From: a virus
IMG/VR virus record: IMGVR_UViG_3300009551_000020
Location: 1-52,798 of that record
Length of the DNA stretch: 52,798 nt
Strand: one strand, 5' to 3'
Shown: one piece after another, positions 33,962-48,149 of the stretch
Position numbering within the stretch: position 1 is the first letter of the stretch
Layout of the letters: each line of letters starts with the position of its first letter
Made by a program: the position numbers and the translations under genes
The notes under the pieces: generated by a model
The model's database searches: none
What the model saw: the letters and a program-made list of their open reading frames with translations, nothing else
What the model was told of the DNA's origin: nothing

Positions 33962-34222
33962 ATGAGCACGGAAATAGAGGGTCAAATGGGGTTGGATGAA
34001 ACAAGCCGCGCTATTGGAAGGCTCGAAGCGGCTCAGGAAGCGACCAAAACAGACGTTGCGACGTTGAAAGAGCGCACCGAACGGATGGACGCAAAGTTAG
34101 ATAAATTACTCGCGAGGTCTGACAAAGTACGTTGGACCGTAAAACATTGGGTTGCGCTTGTAGCCTCGGGTAGCGTGGGCGGGGGCGGCTTCGCTCACCT
34201 CTTACGGAAGCTCATCGAATGA
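33962..34222 (+). CDS. Small coiled-coil membrane protein, holin/hemolysin-XhlA-like candidate
   Basis: An 86-residue protein from ATG 33962. Residues 10-55 form a heptad-rich helix (RAIGRLEAAQEATKTDVATL, then KERTERMDAKLDKLLARSDK). A weakly hydrophobic C-terminal segment (WVALVASGSVGGGGFAHLL) ends LRKLIE. This layout resembles XhlA-type lysis accessory proteins. It overlaps the endolysin start by four bases, so a lysis role is likely. Confidence 0.58.
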   Translation: MSTEIEGQMGLDETSRAIGRLEAAQEATKTDVATLKERTERMDAKLDKLLARSDKVRWTVKHWVALVASGSVGGGGFAHLLRKLIE

Positions 34223-34740
34223 CGCGCGACGGTGCAATAGCGTTACAGATACGCCTCGAAGGTGGGTACGCCAACGTGAAAGGCGACCCCGGCGGCCGAA
34301 CGAAATACGGTATCACTCAAGCGACCTTGACTAACTACCGAGTTAAGAACCCCGAGCTTCCGCCCGATGTAGCGGACCTAACACCCGAGCAAGCGACGGA
34401 AATATACCGCACGGTTGATTGGGACGTTATGCACTGCGACGACCTTCCGCCCGCGCTCGCGGCGCTCATGTTGAACTCGGCAGTCAACCAAGGCGAGCCC
34501 ACGTCGGTTGCCCTCTTGCAAGAGTGCGTGAAGGTGCCCGTTGACTTCCGTATGGGGCCGCAAACACTCGCCGCCGTCAAGGCGTGGCGCTCGCCCTACA
34601 TGCCCGAACAGTCGCTCGCCGAGGAATTCGCCGCCCACGTGGGCGTCAAGTACGCCTCGTTGTACGCGAAAGAGGGACAATTCGAGCTTGGTTGGCTTCG
34701 GCGGCTGTTTCGGGTATACACTCTCGCCGTTTCCTCTTAA
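34219..34740 (+). CDS. Endolysin, glycoside hydrolase 108 family
   Basis: A 173-residue peptidoglycan hydrolase. The GH108 signature is present: LEGGYANVKGDPGGRTKYGI with catalytic Glu14, then LTPEQATEIYRTVDWDVMHC and LNSAVNQGEPTSVALLQECV, followed by the small peptidoglycan-binding-like C-terminal part (RMGPQTLAAVKAW). No export signal is visible, so release should need a holin. It overlaps the upstream membrane protein (ATGA), forming a lysis cassette. Confidence 0.88.
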   Translation: MTRDGAIALQIRLEGGYANVKGDPGGRTKYGITQATLTNYRVKNPELPPDVADLTPEQATEIYRTVDWDVMHCDDLPPALAALMLNSAVNQGEPTSVALLQECVKVPVDFRMGPQTLAAVKAWRSPYMPEQSLAEEFAAHVGVKYASLYAKEGQFELGWLRRLFRVYTLAVSS

Positions 34741-38377: not shown

Positions 38378-38612
38378 GCATCTTGCCGGCGGGTATTTGA
38401 TGCCAGCGACGCCAGAAACACCCGCCGGCCTCGATGCACCGCCAAGGGCCGACGCAACGCACCTCGAAGCCTTTACCGCAGTACATGCCGTCGGTAGCGA
38501 CCACGGTACAGGGTAGCCCGTTCTTGCGTTCCTCGACAAGCCGGGCGCGGCTGTCAGCGTCGCTAATTGGGGCCGGCGTTGTTACGCCCTCGGGGTTATT
38601 CCCATTTTCCAT
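38349..38612 (-). CDS. Small Cys-containing protein
   Basis: An 87-residue protein whose ATG (38612) lies within the last codons of the DNA polymerase gene, a 17-base overlap. Five cysteines occur in the second half (PCTVVATDGMYCGKGFEVRC and WRCIEAGGCFWRRW), suggesting a small metal-binding or disulphide-rich domain. Its last codons overlap the P3 promoter cassette. Function unknown. Confidence 0.6.
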   Translation of the reverse strand: MENGNNPEGVTTPAPISDADSRARLVEERKNGLPCTVVATDGMYCGKGFEVRCVGPWRCIEAGGCFWRRWHQIPAGKMQKCDGGLDD

Positions 38613-40908
38613 AACGATGCGTCTCGTCTGCGTCGGGGGCTTTGATCGGCCAACGCCGGCCCCAATCGTCTATCATCCATTCGTCGAGAGTGTTTACGAT
38701 GCGTAGATATTCGGCCTTGTCGCCTTGCCCGTCTTTGACCTCGGTCACAATTTCGTCGTGTGTGTGCATCACGGGCAGGTAGACGCCCGTAAGCTCAAGG
38801 CGTACAAGCGAGTTCGCTTGCGGTTGCCGGGCGACGTTGGCTACCGAGTTTTGAGTTAAGACGCCCCCGTAAAGGTCCATGCGGACCCAACCGCCCTTGC
38901 CCTTCGTTTGGTTCGAGTTCCAACCAACGTAACTTAGTTCGAGTTCCCACGGTCTCGACCATTCCTTTTTAGCCGGCTCAAGGCGGGGCTCGTGGTACAC
39001 CAACGGAGCATAGCCGCCGGGCGGTTGGCAGTACAACACGTCGTTATGAACTTGGAACTTCACGCCGAGCGGGCCGGGGCGGTTGGTGAAGCAATGGCCG
39101 GGGTTTAGAACGGCCTCGATTGCCGCCCCTTCTAGCCCGTAGCGGCACTGCACCTCGTCGCGCTTGAACTTGTTACGTGTTTGGCCGCCCCATAACTCAA
39201 CAGTCGCGGGGGTCTTGGCTCGCATTCGCAAGATGAGTTGCTTTAGCTCGGCGTCGGTAACGTTGTCTAGGATGCCGTCTTTATCGAGCTTACGCCAACC
39301 CCCTAACCAAGCGCCGAAGCCGTTCGCGAGCGTGGGAACTTTGCCGTATAGTTGCCGGTCGGGATGGTGTTTGCCCGTTTGCTTTTTATATAGCTCGTAC
39401 TCTATAACGGGTGTGCCGGTTAGCTGCGAAGCTGTTTCTAGGTATATCGAGCCGTTGTTATGGAACACATCGAGAACCCATTTCTCGCCGGCAAGAGCCG
39501 CAGTCACGACGGCTTGTATAGCGCTGTAGTCTGACGACATAAGGCGCGTACCGTCGGCGGCAATGATGACCGAGCGTAAGCAATGCGTTATAACTTCCAA
39601 CGCTTCCATGGGCTCGTTGTCTTTGTCATCCCACGGGGGGCCGTTCTTGAACACGCCCTCGACGTACTCAAGGCTACGGCTCGCGAGCACGGCTAGCGCA
39701 AATTCGACTTGCTCGGGCTTGTTGAATTTTCCTTTAACAAGGTTCGCAACTTGTACGTTCTGCCCGTTCCAAAGCTGAGTATGCGCGGCCGCGAAGGCGT
39801 ATTGATCGCGCAAGCGCTCGTCGGGGCAGACTTGACAGCGCATTGCGTATAGTTTCTTGACACTGCCGAAGCTAAGGGTTCGACGTATTTCCAACACCCG
39901 TCGTACGGCGCGGGTGTGATTCTTTTCGAGTTCTTCCTCGACGATATCCTCGTCGAGCCCGTCGAGGTATACGCCTTGTGTTTTCAACCATTCTAGGGTT
40001 GGCTTCACCTCGTTGTGAGTCTGTACGGAACCGTTGGTTATCTGCCGCAGTTCTGCCCAATACTTGGCCTCAGCTTGTTGAATTATCGCGATACAATCGT
40101 CGATGACTTTCAAGTCGAGGCGCATGCCGCGATGGTTTATACGCTGGTCAACTTTCCAAATTGCAAGCTCGCGGGGCGGTAGGTCGGGTATGCGGGTCGA
40201 GGCTTCCGACTCGGCCATGATATCTTGCACGTTGTACGCGTCGAACTTGGCGAAGTCGAGCGGCGCAGTCTCGCGCGTCCAACGCGTAAGGCGATTGTTC
40301 TTCGTAGGGTTACGCGGTCGAGTCAACTTGCCGATAAGGTTCGAGCCTTCCTTATCCTTTTGTTGTGTTAGCTTCAGTACGCCGCCCGCGTCTTCTAGCT
40401 TACGAGGGTACGCGGCAAGAGCCGCCTTTGCCATGCAACACCGAAGTTGTTCAAGATACAACGGCGGCCAACCGAGCTTAGGAACACAATACAGGTTCCA
40501 AACGGTAGCCTCGAAAAACACGTTCCAAGCTTCGACGAGCCCCGTTACATCTTCTTCGACAGTCCATTCGCCGTTGGTAAACTCCCAAATACGATGTTGA
40601 TAGCGTTTGACCCAATTGAGCAACGGCGCGGGGTTGGGCATACCCGGCCGCCAGATTCGCGCACCCTCACCGTCTTTCAGGTTATAGGCAAGTTGAATGA
40701 TATCGAATGATGGATGTAGTACATAGTTGTAGGTTCCCACGACGGGCAACCCGCGCTTGGTCTTACCCGCCAGCGGCAACCCCTTCCATTTTTGCGTGCC
40801 GTCATCCCATAGAAACCCGGCCTCGCTGAAAGTCTCGAAGTCGGCCTCGGGTAGAATCGTCGCGAACCCGTTCATTACGGGTATTCGTTGCCCGACGGTA
40901 ACTAACAT
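38596..40908 (-). CDS. DNA polymerase, family A, with 3-5 exonuclease
   Basis: A 770-residue replicative polymerase. The exonuclease has Exo I DFETFSE (about residues 23-29) and a later KFDAYNVQDIMAESEAS. Polymerase motif A is SSDYSAIQAVVTAALAGE with Asp460, motif B RQLYGKVPTLANGFGAWLGG, and motif C THDEIVTEV with the catalytic HDE at 717-719. In motif A the residue normally Glu (steric gate, DYSxIE) is Gln465 (codon CAA). ATG 40908 follows GGGGG. The gene lies behind a terminator-like hairpin that separates it from the ssDNA-binding gene. Confidence 0.92.
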   Translation of the reverse strand: MLVTVGQRIPVMNGFATILPEADFETFSEAGFLWDDGTQKWKGLPLAGKTKRGLPVVGTYNYVLHPSFDIIQLAYNLKDGEGARIWRPGMPNPAPLLNWVKRYQHRIWEFTNGEWTVEEDVTGLVEAWNVFFEATVWNLYCVPKLGWPPLYLEQLRCCMAKAALAAYPRKLEDAGGVLKLTQQKDKEGSNLIGKLTRPRNPTKNNRLTRWTRETAPLDFAKFDAYNVQDIMAESEASTRIPDLPPRELAIWKVDQRINHRGMRLDLKVIDDCIAIIQQAEAKYWAELRQITNGSVQTHNEVKPTLEWLKTQGVYLDGLDEDIVEEELEKNHTRAVRRVLEIRRTLSFGSVKKLYAMRCQVCPDERLRDQYAFAAAHTQLWNGQNVQVANLVKGKFNKPEQVEFALAVLASRSLEYVEGVFKNGPPWDDKDNEPMEALEVITHCLRSVIIAADGTRLMSSDYSAIQAVVTAALAGEKWVLDVFHNNGSIYLETASQLTGTPVIEYELYKKQTGKHHPDRQLYGKVPTLANGFGAWLGGWRKLDKDGILDNVTDAELKQLILRMRAKTPATVELWGGQTRNKFKRDEVQCRYGLEGAAIEAVLNPGHCFTNRPGPLGVKFQVHNDVLYCQPPGGYAPLVYHEPRLEPAKKEWSRPWELELSYVGWNSNQTKGKGGWVRMDLYGGVLTQNSVANVARQPQANSLVRLELTGVYLPVMHTHDEIVTEVKDGQGDKAEYLRIVNTLDEWMIDDWGRRWPIKAPDADETHRYGKWE

Positions 40909-44251: not shown

Positions 44252-45139
44252 ATGGCAACCGAGAAGTACCGCTATTTCAATTTCGCCGACGGAACCCTCA
44301 CCCTCATCGACACTATGAACGAGATTATCGAGTCGTACGTCGGCAAGGGGTTCATGCTCACCATTCGACAGCTTTATTACCAATTGGTCGCACGCGACAT
44401 AATCGAGAACTCGCAAAAGAGCTACAAACGCGTAACCAGCATTGCGAACGACGCGCGCCTCGCCGGCCTCATGGATTGGGATGCCATCGAAGATAGAACG
44501 CGCGACTTCGTACGCCGTACTCGTTGGAAGAACGGGCAACAGATTCTCGAAGCCGCCGCAAGCTCGTTTCACGTTGATATGTGGCAACACCAACCGCGCC
44601 GGGTGTTTGTCATCATCGAGAAAGAGGCTCTTGTTGGTGTTCTGACGCCCGTGTGTCAGAAGTACGATACGCCCATACTCGCCGCTCGCGGGTATCCTTC
44701 CTGTACCGTACTGCGCGACTTCGCCCTCGAAGACATTATGCCGTTCATGGATACGCAAGACGTAACCATACTACACCTCGGCGACCATGACCCGAGCGGC
44801 ATAGACATGACTCGCGACCTAACCGAGCGTATCCGTTTGTTCTCCCGCGATGAGGGGCACACGGTCGAGTTAGTACGTCTTGCGCTCACCATGGAACAGA
44901 TACAAGAGCGTAGCCCGCCGCCTAACCCGGCCAAGACGACCGACTCTCGCTTTCAGCAGTACATGGAACAGTTCGGCAACGAGTCGTGGGAACTCGACGC
45001 GCTTCCGCCCGAGTACCTTGTGAACCTCGTCGAAACTGAAATTCTCGAACGTGTAGAAGAGGCGCAATGGCAAGCTGACCAACGCCGCGTAGCCGACGTA
45101 CAAAAGCGTATCCGCAAGGCCGCCGAGTCGTTCGCGTAA
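44252..45139 (+). CDS. TopoVIA/Spo11-like TOPRIM protein
   Basis: A 295-residue protein. Residues about 30-75 look like a winged helix: FMLTIRQLYYQLVARDIIEN and RVTSIANDARLAGLMDWDAI. A TOPRIM domain follows, with VFVIIEKEALVGVL (acidic Glu), ARGYPSCTVLRDFA and ILHLGDHDPSGIDMTRDL (Asp-x-Asp). This winged helix plus TOPRIM order is that of topoisomerase VI subunit A relatives. TopoVIA cuts DNA with a winged-helix tyrosine; Tyr37 or Tyr38 in LYYQL are candidates. No subunit B is visible; the adjacent SF2 helicase could be the partner ATPase. Confidence 0.65.
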   Translation: MATEKYRYFNFADGTLTLIDTMNEIIESYVGKGFMLTIRQLYYQLVARDIIENSQKSYKRVTSIANDARLAGLMDWDAIEDRTRDFVRRTRWKNGQQILEAAASSFHVDMWQHQPRRVFVIIEKEALVGVLTPVCQKYDTPILAARGYPSCTVLRDFALEDIMPFMDTQDVTILHLGDHDPSGIDMTRDLTERIRLFSRDEGHTVELVRLALTMEQIQERSPPPNPAKTTDSRFQQYMEQFGNESWELDALPPEYLVNLVETEILERVEEAQWQADQRRVADVQKRIRKAAESFA

Positions 45140-46890
45140 TGCTTCGTGACTTCCAACAAGAGGTAGAGAACGGAATCTTTACCTCTTGGAACGAGCCAAA
45201 CGTTTTCAATGTAATGTCGGTCATGCCCACGGGGGCGGGTAAAACCGTTCTCATGGGCGACATTATAGGTAAGATGAGCCGGCCGACGTGTGCCATTGCG
45301 CACCGTCAAGAGCTTGTTTCTCAGGTATCGCTAGCGCTCAACCGTGAAGGCATCCATCACGGCATCATTGCGCCGAAGACAACTCAACAACAGATTATCA
45401 GGTTACACCATGAAACTCATGGTTACAGCCGTTATAGCTATCGTTCTGACGTGCGTGTTGCCGGTGTTGATTCCCTCCGTGATGCTGATACTAAAGACCG
45501 CTGGTTTGCTTCGGTTGGCCTTACAGTAATCGACGAGGGGCACCATGTACTTACAGCCAACAAATGGGGTAAGGCGTTTACTCTCTTTCCTAACTCGCGT
45601 GGTCTGTTTCTTACTGCTCATGCCTATAGGGCTGACGGCTGCGGCCTTGGTCGTCATGCTAGCGGCCTCGTTGATAGGCTTGTGCTTGGCCCTACTTGTC
45701 GCGAGCTTATTACTCGCGGCTTTCTAACTGACTACGACATCTATTGCCCCGAGTCTGACATTGACTTTTCAGAAGTCGAGATTAGCCCGACTACGGGCGA
45801 CCTCGTGTTACCGCAGCTTCGGGCCGCAACTCACAAGTCGAAACAACTCGTCGGCGACGTAGTGAAGGAATACTTGCGGCTCGCCCCCGGCAAGTTAGGA
45901 GTTACGTTTGCTGTTGATATCGAAGAAGCAAAGAAAATCGCGGCGGCGTTCAACGCCTCGGGAGTGCCCGCAGAAATCATTACGGCAAAGACTCCTATTA
46001 CAGTGCGAGGCCAATTTATGCGAATGTTCCGTGAGCGGCGCATTCTGCAATTGGTTTCCGTTGACTGTTTGGGAGAAGGTGTTGACGTGCCTGCTATCGA
46101 GGTTGTATCGCTGGCGCGTCGAACGGCGTCGTTTCAATTGTACGCACAACAAACGGGCCGAGCGCTTCGAGTGTTGGTTAGCGATGACGAGGCGCGCGTA
46201 TGGGGAAATTACTCGGATTGGGAACGCCTCGCGCGTATTGCAGCCTCGTCAAAGCCGCGAGCGATTATCATAGACCACGTTGGCAACACGGTTTACTTTG
46301 CTCAGTATCACGGCCGCTTGTGTTCGCGGCAGTCGTACACACTCGACGACCGCGAGTCAAAGACACGCCCACGTAATGGCCCCGATTCGCTTCGCCCTTG
46401 CTCGCAAGGCTTCCGGCCGCCCGATACAACAATCATAAAAGGGTGTTTGAAACCCTATGAGAAGTTTTACACGTCGTGCCCTTACTGCGGCGTCGTGCCC
46501 TACGTTGCCGGCCGTGCGCAGCCTGAGCAAGTTGACGGCGATATCGTCTTACTCGACCCTGCCGTTCTTGTAGCCTTGCAGAACGAAATTGCGAAGATTG
46601 ACGGGCCGCCGCCCCCGGTATACGACGGCGCGGTCGGGGGCGCGATAGTCAAGAACCATTACAACCGCCAGCGACACCAAGCGAGCTTGCGGCATGTTAT
46701 GGCGCTATGGGGCGGTTGGCGTATTCACCTCGGCGAAGACTTGCGCCAAGCGCAGAAACGGTTTTATCTTACCTACGGGGTTGACGTTGTAACGGCGTGT
46801 ACCCTCGGCGTGGGCGAGGCTGACGGGCTCGCGGCACGGATACAGAAAGACCTAACAGATAACGGCGTAGTCGAGGCAATGGCCGCATGA
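45139..46890 (+). CDS. SF2 DEAD/DEAH-type helicase
   Basis: A 583-residue helicase starting one base into the previous stop. Motif I is MPTGAGKTVLM, II VIDEGHH, III LTAHAYRADGCGLG, V LVSVDCLGEGVDVPAIEVV and VI QLYAQQTGRALR. In relatives motif III is usually TATP; here it is TAHA, and this change lies inside a stretch (45409-45727) where codon use differs sharply and the +1 frame encodes two hydrophobic ORFs. After the helicase core there is a CPYCGVVPYVAG zinc-knuckle-like element and a helical C-terminal domain. It probably unwinds DNA for replication. Confidence 0.85.
   Translation: MLRDFQQEVENGIFTSWNEPNVFNVMSVMPTGAGKTVLMGDIIGKMSRPTCAIAHRQELVSQVSLALNREGIHHGIIAPKTTQQQIIRLHHETHGYSRYSYRSDVRVAGVDSLRDADTKDRWFASVGLTVIDEGHHVLTANKWGKAFTLFPNSRGLFLTAHAYRADGCGLGRHASGLVDRLVLGPTCRELITRGFLTDYDIYCPESDIDFSEVEISPTTGDLVLPQLRAATHKSKQLVGDVVKEYLRLAPGKLGVTFAVDIEEAKKIAAAFNASGVPAEIITAKTPITVRGQFMRMFRERRILQLVSVDCLGEGVDVPAIEVVSLARRTASFQLYAQQTGRALRVLVSDDEARVWGNYSDWERLARIAASSKPRAIIIDHVGNTVYFAQYHGRLCSRQSYTLDDRESKTRPRNGPDSLRPCSQGFRPPDTTIIKGCLKPYEKFYTSCPYCGVVPYVAGRAQPEQVDGDIVLLDPAVLVALQNEIAKIDGPPPPVYDGAVGGAIVKNHYNRQRHQASLRHVMALWGGWRIHLGEDLRQAQKRFYLTYGVDVVTACTLGVGEADGLAARIQKDLTDNGVVEAMAA
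45410..45529 (+). CDS. Candidate overprinted small membrane protein A (inside the helicase gene)
   Basis: A 39-residue ORF in the +1 frame of the helicase, from ATG 45410 to TAA 45529. AGG lies seven bases upstream. It is almost entirely one hydrophobic segment (VTAVIAIVLTCVLPVLIPSV) with a short Lys/Arg C-terminus. The helicase codons over this ORF end in T far more often than elsewhere. Since the helicase third base is the second base of this frame, T there gives hydrophobic residues. Either the small protein is selected, or unusual helicase codon use makes a hydrophobic shadow. Confidence 0.45.
   Translation: MKLMVTAVIAIVLTCVLPVLIPSVMLILKTAGLLRLALQ
45545..45727 (+). CDS. Candidate overprinted small membrane protein B (inside the helicase gene)
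   Basis: A 60-residue ORF in the same frame as A, 15 bases after its stop, from ATG 45545 to TAA 45727, with a strong GAGGGG site four bases upstream. It has two predicted membrane segments (FLTRVVCFLLLMPIGLTAAA, then LVVMLAASLIGLCLALLVAS) and almost no charged residues outside the first 20. Size and layout resemble small holins or pore-forming peptides. The altered helicase codon use ends at this ORF's stop. The gene covers the mutated helicase motif III. Confidence 0.5.
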   Translation: MYLQPTNGVRRLLSFLTRVVCFLLLMPIGLTAAALVVMLAASLIGLCLALLVASLLLAAF

Positions 46891-47864: not shown

Positions 47865-48149
47865 ATGATTCTAAAAGACACGATTCTAAAAGAAGCCGTT
47901 CGAGTCGTACGGCAACGGGGGCTCGCGGGTCTAACGCGTCGTCTTGTCGCGAACGGTGCCGGGTGTGCCGTGGGAACCGTGAACTATCATTTCGAGAGCA
48001 TGGCCGACTTGTGTGCCGAGGTCATTGCGCACGCCGTCGCCGCCGAAGACATTCAACTATTGGCTCGCAACATTGGAGACCCGAAGGTAACGGCGAAGCT
48101 TTCGCCAGAATTGAAAGCTCGCGTTGCAAAGTATATCGCCGGCCGATAA
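47865..48149 (+). CDS. Mini TetR-family transcriptional regulator
   Basis: A 94-residue protein from ATG 47865 with AAGGTG upstream. Residues 1-57 follow the TetR DNA-binding domain: ILKEAVRVVRQRGLAGLTRR, then AVGTVNYHFESMADLCAEVI, with the usual recognition helix and NYHF turn. TetR proteins are normally near 200 residues; here only about 40 residues follow, so the ligand/dimer domain is much reduced. A match to the nine-copy palindrome lies directly upstream, which suggests that it binds these sites, including its own. That link is inference. Confidence 0.75.
   Translation: MILKDTILKEAVRVVRQRGLAGLTRRLVANGAGCAVGTVNYHFESMADLCAEVIAHAVAAEDIQLLARNIGDPKVTAKLSPELKARVAKYIAGR

Follow-up and report, generated by a model that had tools for sequence, protein, structure and literature searches.

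Here we describe a probable overprinted gene in the genome of a tailed phage, in which a small membrane protein appears to be encoded in the +1 frame of the helicase gene, over a stretch that starts at helicase motif II and extends past motif III. Judging from the coding patterns of the window and of its homologues, we regard this reading as likely, and the overprint itself, the open reading frame termed ORF2 below, is well supported. An excess of T at the third positions of helicase codons (T3) and an excess of hydropathy in the +1 frame track the boundaries of the ORF across homologues, from which we infer translation, membrane insertion and some role for the product.

The window, that is the whole stretch of 52,798 nucleotides that was analysed, is a 52.8-kb virus record of a tailed phage with terminase and portal genes and an endolysin of the GH108 type at 34219-34740 (match to phrog_315 and Glyco_hydro_108). 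A megablast search of the window against known phages gave no match. Its replication module comprises a DNA polymerase, an ssDNA-binding protein, a topoisomerase-like gene and the host gene of the overprint, an SF2-type phage helicase of 583 amino acids (45139-46890, plus strand; phrog_16, E 9e-67; PF04851, PF00271), to which proteins from 1498 phage records are related. In Vibrio phage Rostov M3/CP-T1 and Pseudomonas phage MR14 the related helicases (L024 1438-4419, L025 1576-4149) exceed it in length by a few hundred residues and align in two segments, as though they carried in-frame insertions such as inteins. Between helicase and primase lies a gene for a 94-amino-acid protein with a TetR-type N-terminal DNA-binding domain (47865-48149; PF00440), and small genes resembling it are annotated in related phages.

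Two hydrophobic ORFs with ATG starts lie 15 bases apart in the +1 frame of the helicase on the plus strand, ORF1 with 39 codons (45410-45529) and ORF2 with 60 (45545-45727), exact to the base as the initial annotation had described them. Its count of T-ending helicase codons was likewise reproduced: 55 of 106 within the stretch (45409-45726), 21 of 90 before and 9 of 50 after, or 0.52, 0.23 and 0.18. When synonymous codons were shuffled within the gene, so that both the protein and the codon usage stayed the same, the z-scores for T3 and +1 hydropathy were +4.5 and +5.2 over ORF2, and +4.7 and +5.0 over ORF1. The helicase patch ranks first for T3 among the 49 genes of the window (z 4.7), and the next, in the DNA polymerase gene (40417-40599, minus strand, about codons 103-163 of 38596-40908), reaches z 4.3 with a +1 frame that is not open, not strongly hydrophobic and has stops nearby. 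Since such a patch can occur without an open hydrophobic +1 frame, the pattern in this genome alone is suggestive only, and its significance comes from homologues.

We therefore turned to a close set of 33 distinct helicases including the window, the others from IMG/VR, found by protein-based scans and by a degenerate DNA pattern for the clade-typical TAHxxR(A/G)DGxGLGR, and to a distant set of 13 TATP-type helicases from named phages; a scan of genome contigs for homologues yielded one remote match only. The ORF2 stretch had been fixed in advance by the window before the 32 other homologues were tested. Indeed, T3 was raised over this stretch in those 32 (Stouffer Z 8.6, mean z 1.52; 8.4-8.6 over 45547-45770; 5.3 in homologues outside the window's own clade of nine), and the +1 frame, whose openness the initial annotation had suggested testing in aligned homologues, was open over ORF2 in 14 of 33 against 2.1 expected from synonymous shuffles; as the homologues share ancestry, neither the Stouffer nor the openness figures are fully independent. 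Along the gene the T3 profile peaks at the ORF2 stretch and is flat or negative elsewhere, except for a shoulder over ORF1. Open homologues have a mean T3 z of +3.19 and homologues with stops one of +0.39. Openness is part of what defines a carrier and is itself favoured by T3, yet taken alone it predicts a z of only +0.25. At four-fold sites in the clade, T rises from 0.24 to 0.51 while A and G fall by about half and C is nearly kept. In all 13 TATP-type helicases the +1 frame is interrupted by stops in the stretch, and their T3 z is at most 1.6.

The initial annotation had named T-rich homologues with +1 stops as evidence that would speak against it. Raised T3 was found mainly where the frame is open, but L034, L042 and L059 combine stops with a mild rise (z about 2), which may reflect decaying copies or noise. 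In two other homologues, L011 and L063, the frame is open but T3 over the ORF2 segment is scarcely raised, and L052, in which the +1 frame stops at 45667, was not counted as a full carrier. Among the carriers, stops over the ORF2 segment exceed expectation in the +2, -1 and -2 frames and fall short of it in the -0 frame (11 against 20.7), and only +1 is clear in all of them, a partly circular result since openness was the criterion for calling a carrier. In most lineages the open length is not remarkable by itself, and the length of open runs over the whole gene was uninformative except for +1 in L061, L063 and L011.

Because the homologues are not fully independent, the tracking of ORF boundaries and the comparison of sister pairs matter more. 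The claim that the change in T stops at the ORF2 stop codon holds in the window and also in L003 and L068, where the ORF ends at the same position, 45727, and T3 falls back there; in L055 and L062 the ORF stops a few codons further on. Over the next 20 codons, T3 z ranges from -1.8 to 1.2 in these five carriers, whereas it is still raised in the nine in which the ORF runs on (0.4 to 3.9; Mann-Whitney p 0.0035). At the other end, the ORF1 stretch is T-rich and open in +1 in the window, L002, L011, L061 and L062 and not T-rich in L003, L009, L054 and L068, and T3 is not raised there in L001 either. Selection at helicase silent sites thus appears confined to the overlap, the T3 excess being local and following the ORF ends, and a mutational bias is disfavoured since it would not respect the stop codons of another frame.

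Sister pairs point the same way. The sisters L065 and L068 share one amino-acid lineage, yet 33 of 61 codons in the stretch end in T in L068 (16.4 expected) against 15 in L065, and it is there that the two differ most at silent sites; in the pair L062 and L067, T3 also differs in the stretch while the helicase amino acids are kept. The depression of silent-site change for which the initial annotation had suggested testing this stretch was found in one comparison and not in another. The window and L003, whose silent sites are near saturation outside the stretch, have 66% identical codons at shared residues inside it against 36% over the gene (33% expected), whereas silent-site likeness between the window and its nearest relative, L001, is 0.50 inside and 0.61 outside. 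Elsewhere in the gene, the next part of the helicase (45874-46165) has unusually conserved codons, and within it the +1 frame over 45925-46042 is open in 18 of 33 homologues (6.2 expected), with T3 below expectation and a polar and basic translation. Antisense to the helicase, L001 has an open frame of 265 codons (p 0.003 against shuffles) and L030 and L064 have similar ones, which probably reflect composition.

The start signals of ORF2 coincide with a helicase motif. Read directly from the DNA, its ribosome-site-like sequence and ATG, GAGGGGCACCATG (45535-45547, plus strand), are built from the motif II codons for DEGHH, and GAGGGG-CACC-ATG is the codon string of motif II DEGHHV (45532-45549). 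The initial annotation had assigned a ribosome site to both ORFs and called that of ORF2 strong; the GAGGGG is indeed present, but its strength simply follows from the motif II codons, and the site of ORF1 (AGG at 45400) is weak. The motif II codon choice that creates the ATG occurs in 8 of the 9 carriers that lack an upstream extension against 3 of 16 non-carriers (Fisher p 0.001), a difference suggesting that carriers in need of the start retain it. Five carriers lack a motif II ATG, and L060 has no obvious start for its +1 ORF. The replacement of TATP by TAHA in motif III, which had been tied to the ORF stretch, turned out to be clade-wide and unrelated to it: TAHx is common to 33 of 33 close homologues, one search for which had TAHx as its pattern, with L001-L003, L009 and L011 found without it. 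As TAHx is present with or without an open +1 frame, TAHA is ruled out as a consequence of the overprint.

The predicted ORF2 product has a basic N-terminus (net charge +3) followed by about 45 hydrophobic residues (GRAVY 1.79). AlphaFold2 modelled the 60-residue product as one long helix (residues 6-59, pLDDT 85), and a 178-residue form from other homologues as all helical at low confidence (pLDDT 61). Searches of the ORF products against Pfam and PHROGs at relaxed limits returned chance-level matches only. The sequence of ORF2-type peptides is weakly conserved while hydropathy is kept, a combination also seen in other membrane-active proteins overprinted in phages, namely phiX174 E and the leviviral Sgl proteins; similarity between +1 peptides exceeded region-restricted shuffles, but so did that of other regions of the gene.

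Carriers are not confined to one lineage. On the helicase tree, for which the carrier labels also included L052, the window belongs to a supported clade of nine (98/85) made up of carriers only, and the other carriers, L046, L054, L055, L062 and L068, are scattered, so several gains or losses are needed. The ORF also varies in length. The window, L003 and L068 have the 60-residue form, and L001, L009, L046, L054 and L055 have forms of 65-130 residues with the same start; L011, L061 and L063 share an upstream ATG and a common end that give the 178-residue form, and L002 and L062 have extended +1 ORFs too. In L002, L011, L061 and L062 the ORF1 segment is fused to ORF2, open and raised in T3. ORF1 and ORF2 of the window are thus probably halves of a longer ORF split by a stop codon, ORF1 being the detached 5' part. 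As a separate gene ORF1 is weakly supported, and since it is missing in L001 and L003 an independent function is doubtful. It is quite possible, if somewhat short of probable, that these ORFs form an orphan set of overprinted membrane proteins that repeatedly arise or are lost at one hot spot in the helicase of tailed phages, where motif II doubles as ribosome site and start.

The main alternative is that something other than a protein maintains the T-rich third positions, such as mRNA structure, translation speed or a nucleic-acid signal. Every codon with T as its middle base encodes F, L, I, M or V, and since helicase position 3 is position 2 of the +1 frame, hydrophobic shadows would then arise automatically. 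Hydropathy is indeed not independent of T3, the identity of the peptide is poorly conserved, and the mild rises in L034, L042 and L059 occur despite stops. Such a signal would, however, have to be raised mainly where +1 is open and to fall at lineage-specific ORF ends, to a degree far beyond the +0.25 predicted by openness, and an Rfam search found nothing significant; we therefore consider it unlikely, though it is the most credible of the rivals.

The initial annotation had itself cautioned that the segment might have been acquired T-rich by recombination, with the hydrophobic ORFs as a by-product, and the silent sites of some close pairs are unusually different (window-L001 at ORF1, L009-L060, L065-L068). 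A recombined segment would bring its own amino acids, whereas those of the stretch follow the lineage of the gene: within it L068 agrees with L065 at 51 comparable residues and with the window at 41, and sister helicases of one amino-acid lineage differ sharply in T3. Moreover, the same T3 excess is seen across diverged lineages that are close to saturation at their other silent sites, where the trace of an old acquisition would have been erased, and recombination is very improbable. Chance, with the patch as just one of the many shifts in codon usage that a phage genome contains, gains some credit from the patch in the DNA polymerase gene, but the recurrence at the same place in 32 other homologues refutes it for the T3 of ORF2 and leaves it least probable of all; for ORF1 it is not fully refuted. 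Taken together, the data favour a hydrophobic +1 protein under selection over a recombined T-rich segment. The initial proposal that selection for hydrophobic residues forces T into helicase third positions is thus supported for ORF2, where the excess recurs with the open frame and stops with the ORF ends.

In layout ORF2 resembles several known systems. In phiX174, gene E lies inside gene D, and the third-position T of D supplies the second-position T of a leucine-rich transmembrane stretch of E (review PMC8227390). As in ORF2, a membrane protein is overprinted on another gene and uses T3 of the old frame; unlike ORF2, E is the lysis gene of a small ssDNA phage, whereas ORF2 lies in the helicase of a tailed phage that has an endolysin, and its T rise is local and lineage-specific. 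The Sgl proteins of leviviruses are small, share no mutual similarity, often lie in +1 of the replication gene (rep) and are quickly gained and lost in near relatives (PMC7693330). ORF2 shares the small embedded +1 protein in a replication gene and its lability among near relatives, but leviviruses are ssRNA phages without endolysin, the function of Sgl was shown by lysis assays, and most Sgls lie in less conserved parts of Rep whereas ORF2 spans the conserved helicase motifs II-III. Lambda Rz1, an o-spanin, is a membrane-associated protein embedded in +1 of Rz in a tailed dsDNA phage (PMC6139136), and in that respect is alike; it is, however, a lipoprotein in a lysis cassette. We rejected an Rz1-like embedded o-spanin for ORF2, the host gene being a helicase and no lipobox-type signal being seen by eye in the product, which begins MYLQPTNGVRRLLSFL.

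ORF2 has one feature in common with single-gene lysis proteins, its predicted product being a small embedded hydrophobic membrane protein (60 residues, one helix). The phage has its own endolysin (34219-34740), so ORF2 is unlikely to be its only lysis gene, the role as sole lysis gene of an endolysin-free phage was rejected, and despite its similarity in layout to phiX174 E and leviviral Sgl we would not file it as a lysis protein. The most likely role may be that of a membrane-active protein made with the replication genes, for example in superinfection exclusion or as an accessory lysis effector, which we regard as possible but doubtful; any specific function is unlikely to fare better.

The overprint could work as follows. 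Ribosomes on the helicase mRNA would start at the ATG within motif II (CAC CAT G), for which the purine-rich codons of that motif would serve as ribosome site. The resulting 60-residue peptide, basic and then hydrophobic, would insert into the inner membrane of the host. Selection favouring hydrophobic residues would act on the second base of +1 codons, which is the helicase third base, such that T accumulates there with the helicase protein unchanged. The ORF is labile, varying in length among lineages and absent from many.

Overprinted membrane genes are classic in tiny phages; to our knowledge few have been demonstrated within the core replication genes of tailed dsDNA phages, in which they escape annotation. 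If the hot-spot reading is true, the 60-residue, 65-130-residue, 178-residue and split forms would constitute a natural series of gene birth inside a gene, and carriers, non-carriers and sister pairs make the gain and loss of an overlapping gene traceable at silent sites. They also suggest a cheap screen, in which local T3 patches in core genes may lead to hidden membrane proteins of phages.
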